From Anaeromicrobium sediminis (GTDB taxonomy: Bacteria; Bacillota; Clostridia; Peptostreptococcales; Thermotaleaceae), in NCBI RefSeq assembly GCF_002270055.1, contig NZ_NIBG01000005.1, forward strand, positions 18,040 through 82,039: 64,000 bases of DNA, read 5' to 3'. The notes under the pieces are model-generated. The model saw only the letters and a list, made by a program, of their open reading frames with translations, was not told where the DNA came from and made no database searches. Numbering within the stretch: position 1 is the stretch's first letter; every line of letters begins with the position of its first letter. Both the position numbers and the translations under genes were made by a program. Of this stretch, positions 7,113 to 58,125 are shown piece by piece.

Positions 7113-8801
7113 TTAGAAACGTCCCGTTTTGAATATGGAAAATATTAACCATAAATACATAAGTAATGCTGCAACTAATCCAAATTTTAAGATAGATAAG
7201 CTAAATAGGTACTCTTCTGCTCCAACACGGGCAGCCATTCCAAAGCCTACAATAAGTCCTGCTATAATAATGCTCAGAGATAATAAGGCAATACTAAAGG
7301 AAATTTTATTAGTTATCTTATCAAAATGTTTTAGTATGACCTTTGTTCCTGTAAGCTTTAAATTGAGATTATAATCATCATCTTCCAACTTTCTAAAAAA
7401 ATTAAGGATAAACTCTGGAAAACCTTGTACAAGAGTGCCATAGTCTAATATGTTTTCTGTTATGTTGTTTTTAATTGCTTTGGGTGAAAATATATTTAGC
7501 ATAAGTTTCTTAGCAATAGGTTCTGCCACTTCTAATACGTTTAATTCGGGGTCCAGTTTTTCAACGACCCCTTCCATAGTACCTAAAGTTTTTACTAACA
7601 TGGTAAACTCATTTGGTATAGTAATGTTATATTTAAATGCTAAATTAAAGATTTCATTAAAAAATTCTCCTAACTTTATCTCATTTAATGGTAACTCAAT
7701 ATACTTATCCCTTAGATTATCTATCTCATATTGAAGCTTTTTTATCTCTGAACGTTTATTCATTATGTTCAGTCCTGTTATAGCTTCAACTATGAGCTTA
7801 CTATTTCTAAAAGTAATTCCTAATAATATTTTTAAAAACTGTTTTTTTCGTTCTTCTTTTAATTTTCCAATCATTCCAAAGTCTAAGAATGCAATTTTGT
7901 TATCTGGGAAAACCATAATATTTCCTGGATGTGGATCACCATGATAAATGCCATCTCGTAGTATCTGTTCAAATATGGATTTGGAAATTGTTCTAGCAGT
8001 AAATTTAAAATCAACATTAGCTTTTTTTAATCCTTCAAAATCATTTAAACCAATACCATCTATATGCTCTAAAGTTAATATTCGTCTAGTTGTATAATTC
8101 CAATAAACTGTTGGTATAATAATTTTTTTATCCTTTGACAGATTTTCTTTGAAAATATCTGTATTTTCTCCTTCAATTATAAAATCCAATTCATTTCTTA
8201 ATATATTCTGGAATTCACTAACCATAGTGCTAAATTCATACAGTTTGCCGTACTTTGTATGATTATCAATAAACCAAGCTAAATCTTTTAGAATCATCAT
8301 ATCTTCTTCAATTTTCTTTTCTATCCTTGGCCTTTGTATTTTTACTACAACCTGTTGGCCATCCTGTAGTTTTCCTGAATGGACTTGCGCTATGGAGGCT
8401 GCTGCTAAGGGTTCTTTATTAAAATTAATGAAAATATCTTCTAATTTTTCACCTAGCTCATACTCAATACATGACTTAACCTCGTCAAAGGAAAAGGTGG
8501 GAGCATTATCATGGAGCTTCTCCAACTCAGTTATAATATTTTCAGGTAGCAAATCTGGCCTTGTACTCATTATTTGACCAAGTTTTATAAAGGTTGGTCC
8601 AAGTTCCTCTAATGCTAATCTAAGTCTTTCTTCAGTTGATAGTTGTTTCTCATTTTCTTCTTTATTTATTATTCTACTTTTTATATCTAAGTAATTTAAA
8701 ATACCCAGTTGGTCTAACACTAGGCCGAAACCATATTTTATGAACACTCTAATTATTTCTCTATATCGTTTTATATGCTTATATCTACTAATGGGTATCA
8801 A
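7113..8801 (-). CDS. UbiB/ABC1/AarF-family atypical kinase
   Basis: 562 aa. Family signatures are present: the KxGQ motif in FIKLGQIMSTRPDLLP, the alanine-rich AAASIAQVHSG loop, GDPHPGNIMVFPDNKIAFLDFGMIG (catalytic Asp and the Asp of the DFG equivalent), and two C-terminal membrane helices (last 60 residues). UbiB proteins are membrane-associated atypical kinases/ATPases tied to ubiquinone or other isoprenoid lipid biology. In anaerobic Firmicutes without ubiquinone the role is not established. It is monocistronic between terminators. Confidence 0.88.
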   Translation of the reverse strand: MIPISRYKHIKRYREIIRVFIKYGFGLVLDQLGILNYLDIKSRIINKEENEKQLSTEERLRLALEELGPTFIKLGQIMSTRPDLLPENIITELEKLHDNAPTFSFDEVKSCIEYELGEKLEDIFINFNKEPLAAASIAQVHSGKLQDGQQVVVKIQRPRIEKKIEEDMMILKDLAWFIDNHTKYGKLYEFSTMVSEFQNILRNELDFIIEGENTDIFKENLSKDKKIIIPTVYWNYTTRRILTLEHIDGIGLNDFEGLKKANVDFKFTARTISKSIFEQILRDGIYHGDPHPGNIMVFPDNKIAFLDFGMIGKLKEERKKQFLKILLGITFRNSKLIVEAITGLNIMNKRSEIKKLQYEIDNLRDKYIELPLNEIKLGEFFNEIFNLAFKYNITIPNEFTMLVKTLGTMEGVVEKLDPELNVLEVAEPIAKKLMLNIFSPKAIKNNITENILDYGTLVQGFPEFILNFFRKLEDDDYNLNLKLTGTKVILKHFDKITNKISFSIALLSLSIIIAGLIVGFGMAARVGAEEYLFSLSILKFGLVAALLMYLWLIFSIFKTGRF

Positions 8802-8971
8802 TTAATATCACAACCTATTTACAATCTTATTTTGATTATTACTTCTTTAAAATGGTTCATAATATATTTTTATAAATAACATTCTATTTTATGCCCTTTT
8901 ATTAGATCTTTAAGAAATAACAATTTAGCTATCTTATATAGATTCATATTGCACATGATATTTTTTAACAT

Positions 8972-9021
8972 AAAAAGCATCTTTCCCATAGGATATTTAG
9001 ACTATGGGAAAGATGCTTTTT
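8972..9021. terminator. Perfect 20-bp bidirectional terminator
   Basis: AAAAAGCATCTTTCCCATAG pairs perfectly with 9002-9021 around a 10-base loop, with A and T runs at the ends. On the minus strand it ends the phosphoribosyltransferase transcript. Confidence 0.85.
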
Positions 9022-9054
9022 ATGGCGTTAGATTTTAGGTGTTTCTCCTAATAT

Positions 9055-9702
9055 CTAACTGTTTTCTTGATATGAAGATAATTTTTCTATTAAGGAGGAT
9101 ACTTCATTATCTTCTATTTGACTAAAATCGTCATAATAAAAACCAACTGCCATGAAATTTATGGGGGTTACAATACTTATTACTTCATCTACTAAAGTAC
9201 TTAAATAATGTACCGTATCTTCTGGAGCCACAGGGGTAGCTATTACAATCTTTTTAGCACCGTGTTTCTTTAAAGCTTCAATTGCGGCTAAAATAGTAAA
9301 GCCTGTTGCTATACCGTCGTCTATTAATATGGCAATTCTATCTTTTACCTTTGGAAAGTTAGTATTTCCTTTAAATTTTTCTGTTCTGCTATGGATTTCT
9401 TTTATTTGAGTTTCAACTTCCCTTTCAATATATTCCTGAGATATATTTGCATCGTAAACATAATTGTCGTTCACAAAGTAAGTGCCGTCTGGAGCCACAG
9501 CACCTATGGCTACTTCCTCATTTATAGGAGAACGAATTTTTCTAGGAATGATTAAATCCCAGGAAAAATTATTGTCTATTATGGAATCATAGGCTACTGG
9601 TAATCCGCCACGGGGAATAGGGAGAGCTATCACATCTTGTCCCTTATACTTACTTAATAATTTAGATAATCTCTTTGAAGCTTCAAATCTGTCTTTAAAC
9701 AT
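9055..9702 (-). CDS. Predicted phosphoribosyltransferase
   Basis: 215 aa from the ATG at 9702, placed eight bases after AAAGGTG; the GTG at 9711 overlaps that site. The PRPP-binding signature VKDRIAILIDDGIATGFTILAAIEAL with adjacent acidic residues marks a type I phosphoribosyltransferase fold. PRGGLPVAYD near the N-terminus and the insertion with IKEIHSRTEKF match the uncharacterised COG1926 group rather than the classical purine or pyrimidine enzymes. The nucleobase or other acceptor is unknown. It appears monocistronic. Confidence 0.82.
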   Translation of the reverse strand: MFKDRFEASKRLSKLLSKYKGQDVIALPIPRGGLPVAYDSIIDNNFSWDLIIPRKIRSPINEEVAIGAVAPDGTYFVNDNYVYDANISQEYIEREVETQIKEIHSRTEKFKGNTNFPKVKDRIAILIDDGIATGFTILAAIEALKKHGAKKIVIATPVAPEDTVHYLSTLVDEVISIVTPINFMAVGFYYDDFSQIEDNEVSSLIEKLSSYQENS

Positions 9703-9805
9703 ATAGTTCACACCTTTTGCTAATACTTAAAAAATATCATACCTTAGTGTGTGTAAAATTTAGAAATAATATTAATATGAAAAAATATAATAATAAATAA
9801 TTACT

Positions 9806-10579
9806 CTATTTACCACTTCTGTAATAGCTACTGTTTAAAGTTACATTTAAATCTAAATTATCTTTATTTATTCTCTCTATCATTTCCCTTTTCTTTTTAT
9901 TTGGGTCACTAGAATTTAAAGTTTCTAGTATTCCATTGGCAACTGATTCAAATTTATGATAAGGCATGCCTACTCCTAATTCTGAATCTTCCCATTTAGC
10001 TGCAAGGCGAGTGTTTGAACATAAAAGGGAAACGTTTAAATCGTTTGTTTCATAAGGTGTAGCAGTACATTCAGAACAGAGTCCTTGATTTCCTGTGAAT
10101 TTAATGTTTTTAGTTACTCCAAAATTATAAGAATAACCTTGAACTATTCTCATGGCTTGGTATGGATTGACAATCATTATAACTATGTCCGGCTTCTCCT
10201 CAAATTTTTCAAGGGGCATTACTACTACTCCATAGATTTTGTGGTCAATATAAGTTACTTCCTTTTGAACACTTTTAGCCACACCTAGGCTGTTGTACAT
10301 ACCATAGGAATGATATACTCTTCCTGATACTATATCATTATTAACATCCATTAAACCTAATGCCCTAGCAGAAGCTTTGCAAAAGAAATTATCAATACAA
10401 GATTTAAAAGAGCTACCCTTAGTGGCTAATCTTACTGTATTACAATAAGAAAGCTTATGAACAACTTGCTTCACATTAATTTTTTCAAACTCTTCTTCAG
10501 TGAATATGAACTTTATTCCTACAATTTGCCTCTCTAAATTAAGAGTACAATTTAATTTTTTTATCATATTAGAATTCAA
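9806..10579 (-). CDS. DUF169-family protein
   Basis: 257 aa from the TTG at 10579, eight bases after GGAGG; the GTG at 10588 overlaps the site. The sequence fits DUF169, with a Cys-containing CSECTATPYETNDLNVSLLCSNTR block (about residue 180), GMPYHKF, and VVVMPLEKF. No signal peptide or membrane segment is visible. Several conserved Cys suggest a metal or cluster site, but the family function is not known. It stands alone with a promoter-like AT-rich region upstream. Confidence 0.75.
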   Translation of the reverse strand: MNSNMIKKLNCTLNLERQIVGIKFIFTEEEFEKINVKQVVHKLSYCNTVRLATKGSSFKSCIDNFFCKASARALGLMDVNNDIVSGRVYHSYGMYNSLGVAKSVQKEVTYIDHKIYGVVVMPLEKFEEKPDIVIMIVNPYQAMRIVQGYSYNFGVTKNIKFTGNQGLCSECTATPYETNDLNVSLLCSNTRLAAKWEDSELGVGMPYHKFESVANGILETLNSSDPNKKKREMIERINKDNLDLNVTLNSSYYRSGK

Positions 10580-45707: not shown

Positions 45708-45879
45708 TTTTTTACTTACTAGGAAATTATAAATTTTCAAAACTGTAGATAAGTAAAAAATCAAGGGGGTGTGGGGGAACATCCCCTGCCTCTTTAAAGG
45801 AGGATGCTCAGATTACGCTAGTAATCGTCGAAAGGAACCATAGGGTTCCTTAGCGAAGCATACGGAGTATGCCTTTTTT
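45708..45879 (+). repeat. Dispersed structured repeat, copy B
   Basis: Same organisation as copy A: hairpin unit bounded by TTTTTTACTTA/TAAGTAAAAAA, then core with GGAACC-ATAG-GGTTCC and CATAC-GGA-GTATG stems and a terminal T6. Its end overlaps the 3' end of the histidine kinase gene (45850-45879), encoding that protein's last nine residues and stop. Confidence 0.82.
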
Positions 45880-47974: not shown

Positions 47975-48186
47975 AAGTAAAAAATATTAAAATTATAATT
48001 TCCTAGTAAGTAAAAAATGCATACTCTGTATGCTTCGCTAGGAAACCCTATGGTTTCCTTCGACAATTGCTATCGCAATCTGAGCACCTTCCTTTAAAGA
48101 GGCAGGGGAATTCTTCCCCTACAACCCCTTATTTTTTTACTTACCCACAGGTTTGATAATGTTATAATTTTCTAGTAAGTAAAAAA
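47975..48186 (-). repeat. Dispersed structured repeat, copy C (inverted, extended)
   Basis: Read on the minus strand it repeats the hairpin unit and core of copies A and B from 48186 to 48012. It then carries a second direct copy of the TTTTTTACTTACTAGGAAAT unit ending at 47975. So here the core is flanked by two hairpin units. It lies between the response regulator start and the next TetR gene. Confidence 0.8.
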
Positions 48187-48219: not shown

Positions 48220-48885
48220 TTATTTATACGGTTTTTTCACATAAGATGTCATAGCCCTTTTTATATAGTCTAAAGTTTTCTTTACTGCCTCATGAACTGT
48301 GTATGTTGTATTGTCATTTATAACTTTAGATAGCATACCCTGATATATAAGAAGTATCATTTCGTTTATTCCGTCCATATCTTCTTCATTAATGAAACCA
48401 TCTTCCACACAGGGATATAATATAAATTTATTTCTAGAATAGATATTACCATCAGTAACCATAGGAATTAGATCTTCGAAATCACTACTTAATTCTTCTG
48501 GATAAAGAGTGTAGTATTCTCTCATGGTAGCATTTAAGTCTCCACTAAATTCATTGAAAAATATGGCTTGATATATTTTAGGGTTATTATAAGAATAATA
48601 TAAGAAACACTCCCATACACCAAAAAATTTCTCCACTGAATTTGCTTTGTCCTTTAAGTAACTTGGAAGACTAAATGAATAGTACATTAAGTATTTTACA
48701 GAAGCAAAAAATACTAGATGATTCAAGTTCTTAAAATAATTATACAAAGTAGCACTATTGTATCCTGCCAAATCTGCTACCTTTCTAATGGTTACATTTT
48801 CTACGCCTTCATTTTCGATGATTTTATGGGTTGCTTCAATAAAGTATCCCATCATACGCCTTTTTCTTAAACTTTTGTTATCCAT
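48220..48885 (-). CDS. TetR-family regulator, divergent from grdH
   Basis: 221 aa after AAAGGATAT. HTH: ATHKIIENEGVENVTIRKVADLAGYNSATLYNYFKNLNHLV. The C-terminal domain is long and aromatic, with no diagnostic motif. It is transcribed away from the betaine/sarcosine reductase and transporter genes, so control of that operon in response to the substrate or redox state is likely (inference). Confidence 0.85.
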   Translation of the reverse strand: MDNKSLRKRRMMGYFIEATHKIIENEGVENVTIRKVADLAGYNSATLYNYFKNLNHLVFFASVKYLMYYSFSLPSYLKDKANSVEKFFGVWECFLYYSYNNPKIYQAIFFNEFSGDLNATMREYYTLYPEELSSDFEDLIPMVTDGNIYSRNKFILYPCVEDGFINEEDMDGINEMILLIYQGMLSKVINDNTTYTVHEAVKKTLDYIKRAMTSYVKKPYK

Positions 48886-49061
48886 AATATATCCTTTCTA
48901 TATTAAAAGAATTTCCTACTATCCTAAAATTAACCTATCTTTATATTATATCATAACCTATTAGACTTTAGGATAAGCTATTATAAGTTAAAAATTTATT
49001 TAATAAAAAAAATTTTTATACTTCTAAAATTCTGAAAGTTATGTTATTATTATATCAAAAG

Positions 49062-49116
49062 TAATCATGATTATAAAAGCGATTACGATTATAAAATATA
49101 ATGTGATTGTTATAAT
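49062..49116 (+). promoter_or_regulatory. grdH promoter region with repeated GATTATAA motifs
   Basis: A 12-bp palindrome TAATCATGATTA (49062-49073) overlaps the first of two GATTATAAAA direct repeats (second at 49087). A TATAAT at 49111-49116 lies 25 bases before the start codon. Candidate binding sites for the divergent TetR regulator; the -35 box is not obvious. Confidence 0.45.
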
Positions 49117-49140
49117 TTAAACAAGAAGGGAGTGCCTGAG

Positions 49141-50466
49141 TTGAAGTTAGAATTAGGAAACTTTTATGTAAAAGACATCGTATTTGGAGAAGAGACTTCT
49201 TATAAAGATGGACTACTTACAGTAAACAAAGAAGAAGCGTTAAAGGTAGTATTTGAAGATGAGCATATAACAGAAGCAGACTTAGTAATTGTAAAGCCAG
49301 GTGATGAAGTTCGTATAATGCCGGTTAAGGAAGCTATTGAGCCAAGACATAGAGTAGGTGGAGGTCCAGTTTTCCCTGGAGTAACTGGAGATTTAATGCA
49401 AGCTGGAAACGGTAGAACTCACTGCCTAAAGGATTGTAGTGTATTAGTTGTAGGAAAGCATTGGGGAGGATTCCAAGACGGTCTTATAGATATGTCTGGA
49501 GAAGGTGCTAAGTACACTTTATTCTCTCAATTTATAAATATTTGTCTAGTAGCTGATACAGACGAAGAATTTGAAAAGCGTGAGCAACAAAAGAAAAACC
49601 ATGCACTTAGATGGGCTGGAATGAGATTATCTGAATACTTAGGAAGCTGTGTAGCTGACATGGAGCCTGAAACATTAGATACTTATGAATTAGCTCCTGT
49701 TACTAAGAGAAGTGAAGAAGTAAACAAGCTACCAAGTGTAGTATTAGTACTTCAACCTCAATCTCAAATGGAAGAGTTAGGATACAATGACTTAAACTAT
49801 GGATGGGATTGCAACAGAATGGTACCTACATTCATGCATCCAAATGAAGTTTTAGATGGAGCTATGATCTCTGGATCATTTATGCCTTGTTCATCTAAAT
49901 GGTCAACTTATGACTTCCAAAACTATCAAATGATTAGAAGACTATATGCAGAACATGGGAAAACGTTAAACTTCTTAGGAGTTATAATGTCAAACTTAAA
50001 TGTTGCTCTAGAGCAAAAGCAAAGAGCAGCTTTATTCGTAGCTCAAATGGCAAAATCTTTAGGAGCTGATAGTGCTATAGTAGCTGAAGAAGGATACGGA
50101 AATCCAGATGCAGACTTTATAGCTTGTGTAGTTGCATTAGAGGATGCAGGAGTTAAGACCGTAGGATTAACTAATGAGTGTACAGGTAGAGATGGAATGT
50201 CTCAACCATTAGTAACATTAGATGTTAAGGCAGATGCTATTGTATCTTGTGGTAACGTATCTGAGTTAATTAAATTACCACCAATGAAAACTGTAGTTGG
50301 TGAATTAGAAGCTTTAGCACGTGATGGTTTATCAGGTGGATGGTCAACTGACGAAGTGTTAGGATCTTCAGTAAAAGAAGATGGATCAATAGTTATGGAA
50401 AACAATGCTATGTTCTGTGGTGATAGAGTAACAGGATGGTCTACTAAGACTATGTCAGAATATTAA
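49141..50466 (+). CDS. grdH: Betaine (or sarcosine) reductase component B, alpha/beta proprotein
   Basis: 441 aa from the TTG at 49141, eight bases after GAAGGGAG; the GTG at 49132 touches that site. The sequence KLELGNFYVKDIVFGEETSYKDG, then GGPVFPGVTGDLMQAGNGRTHCLKDCSVLV matches GrdE/GrdG/GrdH. These proproteins are cleaved at a Cys to give a pyruvoyl group that binds the substrate amine; Cys250 in GSFMPCSSKWSTY is the likely site. With the selenoprotein next door it forms protein B of an amine reductase. The adjacent BCCT transporter favours betaine. Confidence 0.88.
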   Translation: MKLELGNFYVKDIVFGEETSYKDGLLTVNKEEALKVVFEDEHITEADLVIVKPGDEVRIMPVKEAIEPRHRVGGGPVFPGVTGDLMQAGNGRTHCLKDCSVLVVGKHWGGFQDGLIDMSGEGAKYTLFSQFINICLVADTDEEFEKREQQKKNHALRWAGMRLSEYLGSCVADMEPETLDTYELAPVTKRSEEVNKLPSVVLVLQPQSQMEELGYNDLNYGWDCNRMVPTFMHPNEVLDGAMISGSFMPCSSKWSTYDFQNYQMIRRLYAEHGKTLNFLGVIMSNLNVALEQKQRAALFVAQMAKSLGADSAIVAEEGYGNPDADFIACVVALEDAGVKTVGLTNECTGRDGMSQPLVTLDVKADAIVSCGNVSELIKLPPMKTVVGELEALARDGLSGGWSTDEVLGSSVKEDGSIVMENNAMFCGDRVTGWSTKTMSEY

Positions 50467-50482: not shown

Positions 50483-51832
50483 ATGAAAAAGGCAATATTA
50501 TATATAAACCAATTCTTTGCAGGAATTGGAGGAGAAGATAAAGCAGATTTTGAACCAGAAATAAGAGAAAACCTAGTTGGTCCAGCATTAGCATTAAATG
50601 CAGCCCTAGGTGAAGATGTGGAAGTAACTCACACAATTATTTGTGGAGATAACTTTATGGGATCTAACCAAGATGAAGCTATTGAGAGAATACTAGGAAT
50701 GTTAAACGGATTAGAGTTTGACATATTCTTTGCAGGTCCAGCATTTAGAGCAGGAAGATATGGAAGTGCGTGTGGATTCATCTGTAAGGCAGTAGAAGAA
50801 ACGTTTGGAGTACCTGTAGTAACTTCTATGAACGATGAAAACCCTGGAGTTGAAATGTTCAAGAAGGATTTATACATCTTTGAAGGTGGTAAAAGTGCCG
50901 CTGCCATGAGAAAAGACATGACAAAGATGGCTAAATTCGGTAAGAAGTTATTATTTGGAGAAGAATTATTAACAGCGCAAGAGGAAGGATTCTTCGTAAG
51001 AGGTAAGAGACATCAAAGATGGTTAAAGTCAGAAGTACCAGCAGTAGATAGAGTAATAGACATGTTACTTAAGAAAATAAATGGAGAAGAATTCCAAACA
51101 GAACTTCCAATACCAGAGCAAGATCTAGTTCCTATTGCACCTGCAATTAAGGACTTATCAAAGGCAAAAATTGCTTTTGCTACTACTGGTGGTATAGTTC
51201 CTGTTGAAAATCCAGACAGAGTTCAATCAGCTTCAGCAACAAGATGGGGTAAATATGACATTAGTAATCTTGAGACTCTTCCATCTAAGGACAAAGAGTG
51301 TACAGTAGATACTGAGTACAAGTCATATAAGACTATCCATGCAGGTTTTGACCCAGCAGCAGCAGATGCAGATCCTGATGTAATTGTTCCTCTTGATGCA
51401 CTTCGTGCATACGAAAAAGAAGGTAGAATAGGAAGCATTCACAACTATTTCTATACTACTGTTGGAACAGGTACTACGGAAGCTGAAGCAGCTAGAATGG
51501 CAAGAGAAATCGTTGAAGACTTAAAAGCTGCTAACGTTGATGCAGTTATCATGACATCTACATGAGGTACTTGTACTCGTTGCGGTGCAACGATGGTAAA
51601 AGAAATTGAAAAGGCTGGATTTACAATTGTTCAAATGGCAAACTTAATTCCAGTTGCAAAAACTGTAGGAGCTAATAGAATGGTTCCGACAATATCTATA
51701 CCATATCCATTGGGAGATCCTTCAACTTCTAAGGAACAACAATGGAAGCTTAGATATCACAGAGTTGGTGTAGCACTTGAAGCTTTAGAAACAGAAATAG
51801 AAGAGCAAACTGTATTTAAAGTAAAAATATAA
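50483..51832 (+). CDS. grdI: Betaine (or sarcosine) reductase component B, selenoprotein gamma subunit
   Basis: 449 aa read through an in-frame TGA at 51563-51565 as selenocysteine 361. The motif is T-U-G-T-C-T-R-C, the UxxCxxC of GrdB/GrdF/GrdI. Downstream, the frame continues for 88 codons with a normal GrdB C-terminus (MVKEIEKAGFTIVQMANLIPVAKTVGANR, PYPLGDPS) to TAA. Protein B transfers the substrate's carboxymethyl unit to selenoprotein A, yielding acetyl phosphate with protein C. GrdA and GrdC/D are not in this window, so they must be elsewhere. A naive caller would split it into two frames. Confidence 0.93.
51563..51592 (+). promoter_or_regulatory. Selenocysteine UGA and bacterial SECIS hairpin
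   Basis: After the TGA (51563-51565) a stem CGTTGC (51578-51583) / GCAACG (51587-51592) closes a GGT loop 19-21 bases downstream. The distance and GU in the loop fit a SelB-binding bSECIS. The hairpin lies in coding sequence. Confidence 0.75.
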
Positions 51833-51847
51833 AGGAGGACACTATAC

Positions 51848-53356
51848 GTGAATAAAAAAGATAATAAGGTCTTTGTTATATCAGTTATAGTGACTATTTT
51901 AATAGTTGCTTGGGGAATATTTGCCCCAAGCAACTTTGAAATGGCCGCTAAGGGAGCATTTAACTTTCTTGTAGGAAATTTTGGTTGGTTTTATATGATT
52001 TCAATGTTTTCATTTGTTGTATTTGCTATATGGATTGGGTTTAGTAAATATGGGGATATTAAACTGGGTCCAGACGATTCAAAACCAGAATATTCATATG
52101 TATCATGGTTTGCCATGTTATTTAGTGCCGGTATGGGGATCGGACTAGTATTCTGGGGAGTAGCAGAACCACTTAATCATTTCGCAGCACCATTTGGTAT
52201 AGAAGCAGGTACAGCAGCTGCTGCTGACTTTGCCATAAAGAAATCTTTCTTCCACTGGGGTCTTCACCCTTGGGCAAACTATACAGTATTAGCCCTTGCA
52301 TTAGCATATTTCCAATTTAGAAAGAATAAGCCAGGTCTTATAAGTTCAATATTTATTCCACTTATTGGAGAAAAAGGTGTGGAAGGACCTATTGGTAAAA
52401 CAATAGATATACTAGGTATATTTGCTACTGTTGCAGGTGTTGCCACTTCATTAGGATTAGGAACACTACAAATAAACAGTGGACTTAACTACTTATTTGG
52501 AATTCCAGAAAACGCCTTAGTACAGATCATAATCGTTACAGTAGTAACAGTGTTATTTATGATATCTGCTGTAACAGGTCTTGATAAGGGTATAAAAATA
52601 TTATCTAATGCTAACCTTTCATTGGCTGGTATATTAACAATACTTGCTTTAGTAATAGGACCTACTATGATGATTATAAACGCCTTTACTAATGGTATAG
52701 GTCTATACTTAGGTAACTTCATAAGAGATAGTTTCCAGATGGAAGCTTTTAGAGACAATTCATGGTTTGGTGGATGGACAGTATTCTACTGGGCTTGGTG
52801 GATTGCTTGGGCACCATTTGTTGGAACATTCATTGCAAGAATATCTAGAGGTAGAACTATTAAAGAATTCGTTTCTGGAGTATTATTAGTTCCAGCATTA
52901 GGATCTTTCTTATGGTTCTCAGTATTTGGTACTATGGGATTAGACTTAGGAGTTGAAGTAGCTAATGAAGCTATTAAATCTACTTCTACAGCGTTCTTCG
53001 TAGTAATGAGCCATTATCCAATGGGAAGTATTATATCCTTAGTAGCTATAATCTTATTATGTACATTCTTTGTTACTTCTGCAGATTCAGCTACATTCGT
53101 ATTAGGTATGATGTCTTCTAATGGAGACTTAAACCCAACAACTCAAAGAAAAGTAATCTGGGGAATTATTCAATCTGCCCTAGCTTTAGCTTTAATGATT
53201 TCTGGTGGACTTGGAATGTTACAAACTGCATCTATAGCAGCTGCATTCCCATTCATATTCATCATGATAGGTGGTATGATGAGTTTAGTGAAAGCACTTA
53301 AGAACGATGAGGCTATAGTAGGTAGAAAGAATAAAGAAAATAAAAGAGTAGTTTAG
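51848..53356 (+). CDS. BCCT-family betaine/choline/carnitine transporter
   Basis: 502 aa from a GTG after AAAGGAGG, 15 bases after grdI. Twelve helices with family signatures: FSAGMGIGLVFWGVAEPLNHF, the Trp-rich FFHWGLHPWANY and WWIAWAPFVGTFIARISRGRT, and FFVTSADSATFVLGMMSSNG. Na+- or H+-coupled uptake of quaternary amines. Its place in the grd operon suggests it feeds betaine (or sarcosine) to the reductase. Confidence 0.93.
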   Translation: MNKKDNKVFVISVIVTILIVAWGIFAPSNFEMAAKGAFNFLVGNFGWFYMISMFSFVVFAIWIGFSKYGDIKLGPDDSKPEYSYVSWFAMLFSAGMGIGLVFWGVAEPLNHFAAPFGIEAGTAAAADFAIKKSFFHWGLHPWANYTVLALALAYFQFRKNKPGLISSIFIPLIGEKGVEGPIGKTIDILGIFATVAGVATSLGLGTLQINSGLNYLFGIPENALVQIIIVTVVTVLFMISAVTGLDKGIKILSNANLSLAGILTILALVIGPTMMIINAFTNGIGLYLGNFIRDSFQMEAFRDNSWFGGWTVFYWAWWIAWAPFVGTFIARISRGRTIKEFVSGVLLVPALGSFLWFSVFGTMGLDLGVEVANEAIKSTSTAFFVVMSHYPMGSIISLVAIILLCTFFVTSADSATFVLGMMSSNGDLNPTTQRKVIWGIIQSALALALMISGGLGMLQTASIAAAFPFIFIMIGGMMSLVKALKNDEAIVGRKNKENKRVV

Positions 53357-55860: not shown

Positions 55861-57501
55861 TTATCCCTCCATAATGTGGTCTACTGATTGACCTGGAGGT
55901 ATTATTGGATAAGCAAATTGATTGTTATCAATTACACATTCTATTAATATAGGTCCATTGAAATCCTTGTTGGCTTCTAGAACCTCTTGAAGTTCATTAT
56001 TGTTTTCAGTCTTATATGCTTTTATGCCAAAGGCATCACATAGTTTAATATAATCAACATGATCATATAGGGTAGTTTCTGAGAACTTTTTGTCCTGGAA
56101 TAGGTCTTGCCATTGCCGCACCATGCCTAAGCTATGGTTGTTGAATAATATAATCTTTACAGGGAGATTATATTTACTTATAGTTAAAAGTTCTTGAGCA
56201 CACATTCTAAAACTTCCATCACCAGTGAATAATATTACAGTATCATTGGGATTACCAACTTGAGTACCTATGGCAGCTCCTATACCAAATCCCATAGTTC
56301 CAAGGCCTCCACTTGTAATAAATGAATCATCACGTTTAAAACTCCAATGCTGAGCAGTCCATATTTGATGCTGACCTACATCCGTTACTATAAAGGCATC
56401 TTCGTATTGTTTATTTAAACTATCTATAATAAGTTTTGCATTAAATTCCTCTAGTTTTTGTCTAGAACTTTTAAAAGTAGATACCTTGTCTGCCCAACTC
56501 GTATCATATTGTTTATCCACATTATTATAAATATGCTCTAAATTTACTTTTAAATCTCCTGTCACATGAAGATAAGTGTCTAAGTTCTTATCTAATTCGG
56601 TACTGTCTATTTCAAAGTGTACTATCTTTGAATCTGGAGCAAAGAACTTAGGATTTCCTATAACCCTGTCACTAAATCTCATACCTATGGCTAAAAGTAA
56701 ATCACAATTTTTTACTGCCAGATTAGCTTCTTTAGAACCATGCATACCCACAAGACCGTAGGACAGGTCATGATTCCTATCTATAGTACCAAGACCCATT
56801 AAGGTATTTAAAACTGGAATATGAAGTTTCTCAGCTAAATCTACTAAAAGCTTTGATGCACCAGCAGACTTAATTCCTCCTCCAGCTATAATAACAGGTC
56901 TTTCAGCATTTTTTAACAAATCTATAGTCTTATTACAATTATCACAGACTAGATTGTCTATGTCTAAATTCACTTCTAGATTTTTATATTCTGTTTTAGC
57001 TAAAAATACGTCCTTAGGAATATCGATTAAAACAGGTCCTTTACGGCCAGTTGTGGCAACGGACAAAGCTTCCTTAACGGTCTTTTCTAAATCATCTATA
57101 TCCCTAACAAGATAATTTTTCTTAGTTATACCCATAGTAATTCCTGTCACATCAACTTCTTGGAAAGAATCCTTTCCCAGTAAAGCACAGGGAACTTGAC
57201 CTGATAGGACTAATAAAGGTACAGAATCTAAATAAGCATTAGCTATACCCGTTATAGCATTAGTAGCTCCCGGACCTGAAGTAACAATACAAACGCCTAC
57301 CTTTCCTGTGGCACGGCTATATGCATCAGCTCCATGAATGGCACTTTGTTCATGGGCCGTTCTTATATGATTAAAATGATCCGTCTCGTCATATAAAGCA
57401 TCGTATAATGGAATTACAGCTCCTCCAGGATAGCCAAAAAGTGTATCTACCCCTAAATCCTTTAAGGATTGTAAAACTATTTTTGAGCCTGATCTATTCA
57501 T
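55861..57501 (-). CDS. ilvB: Acetolactate synthase, large (catalytic) subunit
   Basis: 546 aa from the ATG at 57501; a GTG nine bases earlier overlaps the weak site. TPP-enzyme layout: catalytic Glu in RTAHEQSAIHGADAYSRATGK, GPGATNAITGIANAYLDSVP, central FAD-binding-type domain (VIIAGGGIKSAGAS), and TPP/Mg motif GDGSFRMCAQELLTISKYNLPVKIILFNN. The biosynthetic form: condenses pyruvate with pyruvate or 2-oxobutyrate in valine/isoleucine synthesis. Downstream of a small ACT gene and an Ile T-box; ilvA is divergent. Confidence 0.93.
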   Translation of the reverse strand: MNRSGSKIVLQSLKDLGVDTLFGYPGGAVIPLYDALYDETDHFNHIRTAHEQSAIHGADAYSRATGKVGVCIVTSGPGATNAITGIANAYLDSVPLLVLSGQVPCALLGKDSFQEVDVTGITMGITKKNYLVRDIDDLEKTVKEALSVATTGRKGPVLIDIPKDVFLAKTEYKNLEVNLDIDNLVCDNCNKTIDLLKNAERPVIIAGGGIKSAGASKLLVDLAEKLHIPVLNTLMGLGTIDRNHDLSYGLVGMHGSKEANLAVKNCDLLLAIGMRFSDRVIGNPKFFAPDSKIVHFEIDSTELDKNLDTYLHVTGDLKVNLEHIYNNVDKQYDTSWADKVSTFKSSRQKLEEFNAKLIIDSLNKQYEDAFIVTDVGQHQIWTAQHWSFKRDDSFITSGGLGTMGFGIGAAIGTQVGNPNDTVILFTGDGSFRMCAQELLTISKYNLPVKIILFNNHSLGMVRQWQDLFQDKKFSETTLYDHVDYIKLCDAFGIKAYKTENNNELQEVLEANKDFNGPILIECVIDNNQFAYPIIPPGQSVDHIMEG

Positions 57502-57516
57502 GAAATTCACCTACTT

Positions 57517-57744
57517 TTAATTAATTTGAATACTGTTTAGCAAACTGTATTTTTTTAAATATAAGGCTGCCTTATCTGCAGTATGTCCCTTAGCTTCGTC
57601 AAAAGTTATTTTAATAGAACTACTTATATCAAATTCCTTTATTTCTAGTTCACTAATATAGAATTCTTTTCTCCTTAAAGATGTTGTTAATTTTATTAAA
57701 TTATCCATACCCTTTTCCATTTCCCCAATAATTGTTCTTTTCAT
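57517..57744 (-). CDS. Short ACT-domain protein, acetolactate synthase regulatory subunit (IlvM-like)
   Basis: 75 aa, AAAGGAG before the ATG, 15 bases upstream of ilvB. The sequence is consistent with one ACT fold (LIKLTTSLRRKEFYISELEIKEFDISSSIKITF), half the size of usual IlvN/IlvH. Its order before ilvB is unusual. It probably binds a branched-chain amino acid and regulates IlvB; the identity is mostly from context. Confidence 0.7.
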   Translation of the reverse strand: MKRTIIGEMEKGMDNLIKLTTSLRRKEFYISELEIKEFDISSSIKITFDEAKGHTADKAALYLKKYSLLNSIQIN

Positions 57745-57834: not shown

Positions 57835-58125
57835 AAAACTCTCGGCTTTACAAACACATAACATTGTATTTGCAGAGACGAAAGTTTTCGTGGTACCACT
57901 CTACTTTATAGATATAAAAATATCTACCTTATATCAGGTCGAAAGTTTCCTTTGAACCCTAGCCATATAACGGTGGCGCCCGTCTTTGTCTACTATTTAA
58001 AAAATTTCGACTTAGAAGCTCAGGAGTGATCATTACATAAATCATCTATGATTAGGCTCTCAGCAATGCCTAAATCTCTGTACATAGTAACAGATTTATC
58101 TTTGTCTCCATCACAGCTTTATGAA
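57835..58125 (-). promoter_or_regulatory. T-box leader, probably isoleucine-specific
   Basis: On the minus strand the leader holds the antiterminator T-box GAGTGGTACCACG (57889-57901), followed by a terminator hairpin ending CGAGAGTTTTTTT (to about 57835). Upstream, GTAATG-ATC-ACTCCTGAGC places ATC (Ile) as specifier at 58028-58030. TGGT pairs with the ACCA end of a tRNA with discriminator A. Uncharged tRNA-Ile would relieve termination of the ACT-ilvB operon. Confidence 0.85.

Follow-up and report, generated by a model that had tools for sequence, protein, structure and literature searches.

Pfam GRDB is a family of UxxC selenoproteins, and GrdB is counted among the five most widespread (PMC9312934). 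GrdH is a known selenoprotein of Clostridium sticklandii, where selenocysteine is residue 352 of 440 (PMC3091704, Table 2). In strain M8S5, an operon containing grdI and grdH has been described together with a betaine transporter (PMC10536192). In bacterial SECIS elements, a small apical loop with a guanosine is a named feature (PMC1088965).

Here we analyse a gene of Anaeromicrobium sediminis located within a stretch of 64,000 nucleotides (contig NZ_NIBG01000005.1, positions 18,040 to 82,039), hereafter the window. As judged from sequence, positions 50483-51832 correspond, with a probability of about 0.97, to grdH, the selenocysteine-containing and substrate-specific subunit of betaine reductase component B. 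GrdH being an already known selenoprotein, the locus adds an ordinary case to a family already described, and nothing essential distinguishes it from known GrdH. Selenocysteine is found at a like place in CLOST_1057, the GrdH of C. sticklandii (352/440 vs. 361/449 here; PMC3091704). As in M8S5, grdI is ahead of grdH and a betaine transporter is nearby; the operon described for M8S5 also carries trxA, grdA, grdC, grdD, and trxB, whereas here these genes are on another contig, C2 (PMC10536192). The features of the locus are as follows, in window coordinates.

48220..48885, minus strand: TetR-family regulator, divergent (Pfam TetR_N, 33.8 bits, cut-off 24)
49132..50466, plus strand: probable grdI, betaine reductase component B partner subunit, 444 aa (Pfam PF09338 Gly_reductase, 624 bits)
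50483..51832, plus strand: very probable grdH, betaine reductase component B selenoprotein subunit, 449 aa, Sec 361 (NCBIfam NF040795)
51563..51565, plus strand: in-frame UGA, predicted selenocysteine U361 in U-G-T-C-T-R-C (translation; TGA in the best 80 of 157 related loci)
51566..51603, plus strand: predicted bacterial SECIS (Rfam RF01990 SECIS_4, synonymous constraint, one pair changed on both sides)
51848..53356, plus strand: BCCT transporter, predicted glycine betaine uptake (NCBIfam NF047988 betaine_BCCT, 688.2 bits, cut-off 650)

In the open reading frame listing of the window (table 11), a 360-aa ORF (50483-51565, plus strand) closes with the TGA at 51563-51565, and a separate 79-aa ORF (51593-51832) begins at an internal ATG. 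Past the TGA, the frame is open until the TAA at 51830-51832. Translation of 50483-51832 with TGA as U yields 449 residues, with U361 in the motif S-T-U-G-T-C-T-R-C-G-A-T-M-V; the stop at 51565, the in-frame resumption to 51832, and the motif were all correctly located by the earlier note. The window has 48 mechanical ORFs that reach 150 aa or more. Three of them end in TGA, followed by 88 open codons for 50483-51565 vs. 8 and 3 for the two others. However, one ORF ending in TAA (TAA 45173) has 155 open codons beyond it, the next ORF sharing its frame by chance, so that openness of the frame alone is little proof. Stronger arguments from sequence are that one profile HMM (NF040795) spans the UGA and that the TGA is kept in each of the best 80 relatives.

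Indeed, the read-through protein matches NCBIfam NF040795 (betaine_GrdH) with 828.3 bits (cut-off 775), and its residues 3-449 align with positions 1-435 of the 435 of the profile, a match that covers both sides of the UGA. Other marks of GrdH membership are present: the in-frame UGA is at the U-x-x-C site, a Gly_reductase partner gene is alongside, and GrdA, GrdC, GrdD, and a thioredoxin system are encoded in the genome. The earlier note placed the C-terminus in the GrdB family. The protein does match Pfam GRDB with 527 bits and has this family, the UGA motif, and the hairpin sequence in common with GrdB (TIGR01917). The protein would nevertheless be the GrdH of betaine reductase and not GrdB, as it reaches 510.2 bits with the gly_red_sel_B model (TIGR01917, cut-off 602.2), and the GrdB of this genome is encoded on C2 (C2:333514, 796.9 bits). 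The Pfam GRDB model stops at residue 360, before the UGA, and is therefore uninformative on read-through. With the NCBIfam model sarcosine_GrdF, the protein scores 569.3 bits, under the cut-off of 800. A sequence search of solved structures with GrdH returned no match at E up to 0.001.

The partner product (49132-50466) scores 357.9 bits with the NCBIfam GrdG model, under the cut-off of 780, and no GrdI-specific NCBIfam model was reported for it. The gene is probably grdI, a name taken from its place and from the grdI-grdH usage found in PMC10536192.

Homology and context suggest betaine as the substrate. Since specificity is read from the family model and the neighbours, one may envisage a selenoprotein acting not on glycine betaine but on sarcosine, glycine, or a different quaternary amine. 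This is unlikely, however, as the protein is over the betaine_GrdH cut-off but under those of sarcosine_GrdF and gly_red_sel_B, and the adjoining glycine-betaine BCCT protein is over its own. We would likewise hardly expect GrdI-GrdH to work on a different quaternary amine in place of glycine betaine, with protein A and component C in common with glycine reductase.

Conservation of the betaine reductase locus was studied with 157 relatives found in genome contigs, of which the best 80, from many organisms, were examined. All of these 80 have TGA at the selenocysteine codon and are otherwise free of stops over the matched range, and cysteine is absent from the UGA site among them. A grdI (Gly_reductase) match accompanies all 80 as well. 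BCCT and TetR matches are found in the flanks of 73 and 58 of them, respectively, some flanks being short.

Immediately after the UGA, Rfam SECIS_4 (RF01990) matches positions 51566-51603 with 66.2 bits (gathering threshold 38; E 1.4e-13), over its full length (1-38/38) and with no difference noted. The hairpin has the stem CGTTGC (51578-51583) and GCAACG (51587-51592) around a GGT loop (51584-51586), 18 nt separating the UGA from the loop. A bacterial selenoprotein gene is expected to have a SECIS right after the UGA, with a small apical loop that contains a guanosine. Such an element is found where the earlier note had seen a stem-loop with a GGT loop, and the SECIS prediction that it proposed agrees. 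The SECIS_4 model may have been built from such genes, in which case its score might depend on protein conservation.

Fold energy of the region, taken alone, gives weak support (z -1.51), with 18 of 200 shuffles folding as well. With synonymous shuffles, 143 of 5000 fold as well as the grdH hairpin region, and the five inner stem pairs recur in 45 of 5000. Synonymous constraint was measured on 81 sequences (the 80 relatives and the window), with 281 codon columns scored. Across codons 362-371 (nine scored), the synonymous-entropy ratio averages 0.43, vs. 0.93 in the 272 remaining columns (p 1e-6). The ten-codon window with the lowest synonymous variation in the gene begins at codon 364, the hairpin corresponding to codons 366-370. 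Such low variation over the hairpin is as expected if the sequence carries an RNA signal. Strong constraint is also found at codon 355 (ratio 0.26), which is not part of the hairpin. At codon 366, CGT is used in all 80 rows with arginine, unlike the main arginine codon of these genes, AGA (959/1411); the 81st row (L024) has leucine.

Within the stem, pairs 3 to 5 are invariant in the 81 rows, and a single row (L024) disrupts pair 2. The loop-closing pair 6 is U-A in four rows, where the change is accompanied by an alanine to threonine replacement, and C-G in the 77 others; the rows are related by descent, and the four U-A rows need not represent four events. The outermost pair 1 is unformed in 24 of the 81 rows, so that the conserved stem has five pairs rather than six.

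The genome (55 contigs, completeness 100, contamination 3.31) contains the machinery for selenocysteine insertion. Sub-cut-off Sel matches also occur in control genomes, and only matches over the cut-offs were therefore counted. On C1 (13120-20737), selD, selA, selB, and the tRNA-Sec gene (selC) follow one another in that order, the tRNA gene being separated from selB by other ORFs. The scores are 388.6 bits for SelD (cut-off 125), 624.9 for SelA (267.9), 391.6 for SelB (242.25), and 70.8 for tRNA-Sec (47). This selD has an in-frame TGA, and a second SelD-like gene (L105, C3:193399-194316; 368 bits, cut-off 125) has its own. Absence of the machinery was what the earlier note considered fatal to its proposal; selA, selB, selC, selD, and a UGA-bearing grdA were all found. 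The grdA gene occurs once, with one in-frame UGA, and has as its neighbours on C2 trxB, trxA, a grdE-type gene, grdB, and two component C genes (grdC, grdD). GrdA, GrdC, GrdD, TrxA, and TrxB from C2 are all over their cut-offs; the grdE-type gene scores 715.8 bits, under the GrdG cut-off of 780. A glycine riboswitch is located upstream of these glycine reductase genes. The two other GRDB genes of the genome both have a UGA and an Rfam SECIS_4. For grdA and for the selD on C1, the stretches searched after the UGA gave no SECIS match with Rfam. Overall, selenocysteine at the in-frame UGA, as first proposed from the letters of the DNA, is supported by NF040795, SECIS_4, the conserved UGA, the synonymous constraint, and selABCD.

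In L022 (G000:C1:220000-238000), at 7631-10286 on the minus strand, there is a third pair of component-B genes, which has a UGA and SECIS_4. It adjoins genes for a sodium-dependent transporter, a histidine kinase, and an NtrC-type regulator. Its scores are under the NCBIfam cut-offs (GrdB 597.8/602.2, GrdF 639.8/800, GrdH 540.4/775).

If the UGA were a true stop, the locus would be a pseudogene or would yield a product of 360 residues, possibly alongside a separate C-terminal ORF from ATG 51593. Mechanical ORF calling does split the gene there and, of the mechanical ORFs of 150 aa or more in the window, two others end in TGA. But the same TGA recurs, as the sole stop of the matched range, in the best 80 of 157 relatives, the NF040795 protein model runs through it, selABCD are in the genome, and no clear Shine-Dalgarno sequence was seen by eye ahead of ATG 51593. 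Termination at this codon is therefore highly improbable, and a pseudogene was rejected. Still less credible, and rejected as well, are a reassigned UGA in this organism or a sequencing error in a cysteine codon, given the same TGA in those 80 loci from many organisms and in the two other GRDB genes of the genome, the SECIS behind the UGA, and the tRNA-Sec.

With the UGA read as selenocysteine, established knowledge of these families suggests that SelB and Sec-tRNA(Sec) would bind the hairpin and insert selenocysteine. Betaine would be imported by the adjoining BCCT protein, then bound by GrdH and GrdI, which would free trimethylamine. The carboxymethyl group would be handed on by GrdH/GrdI to protein A (GrdA), at its selenocysteine, and then be converted to acetyl phosphate by component C (GrdC/GrdD); electrons would come from the thioredoxin system. 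GrdI-GrdH of the window would presumably borrow protein A, component C, and thioredoxin from the C2 genes. This biology is known Stickland metabolism.

The main importance of the locus concerns annotation. A stop-based gene caller splits grdH and detaches the part with the U-x-x-C site, thereby hiding a gene for betaine fermentation to trimethylamine and acetate. The earlier note expected two truncated genes from automatic annotation; a table-11 ORF caller does yield two, but NCBIfam has a dedicated GrdH model.

The divergent TetR-family gene (48220-48885) is a possible local regulator, a role that we infer. Between it and grdI, an inverted repeat GTAATC...GATTAC was noticed by eye (49061-49086), possibly an operator. 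Further upstream, Rfam Clostridiales-2 RNA has two copies in the window, at 45757-45838 (plus strand) and 48053-48136 (minus strand). At least 97 matches at E up to 0.001 are spread over many contigs of the genome (150 of 247 candidates scored). These are many for an sRNA gene, and the element may be a dispersed repeat.

Elsewhere in the genome, a proline reductase region (L111, G000:C14 near 103918-104955) contains proline racemase, PrdD, and a 155-aa ORF resembling part of PrdA. Finally, a T-box leader is found in the window at 57871-58123 (minus strand). Two ORFs of this strand follow it, 57517-57744 and 55861-57510, and the second presumably encodes a protein that resembles acetolactate synthase, from its translation.
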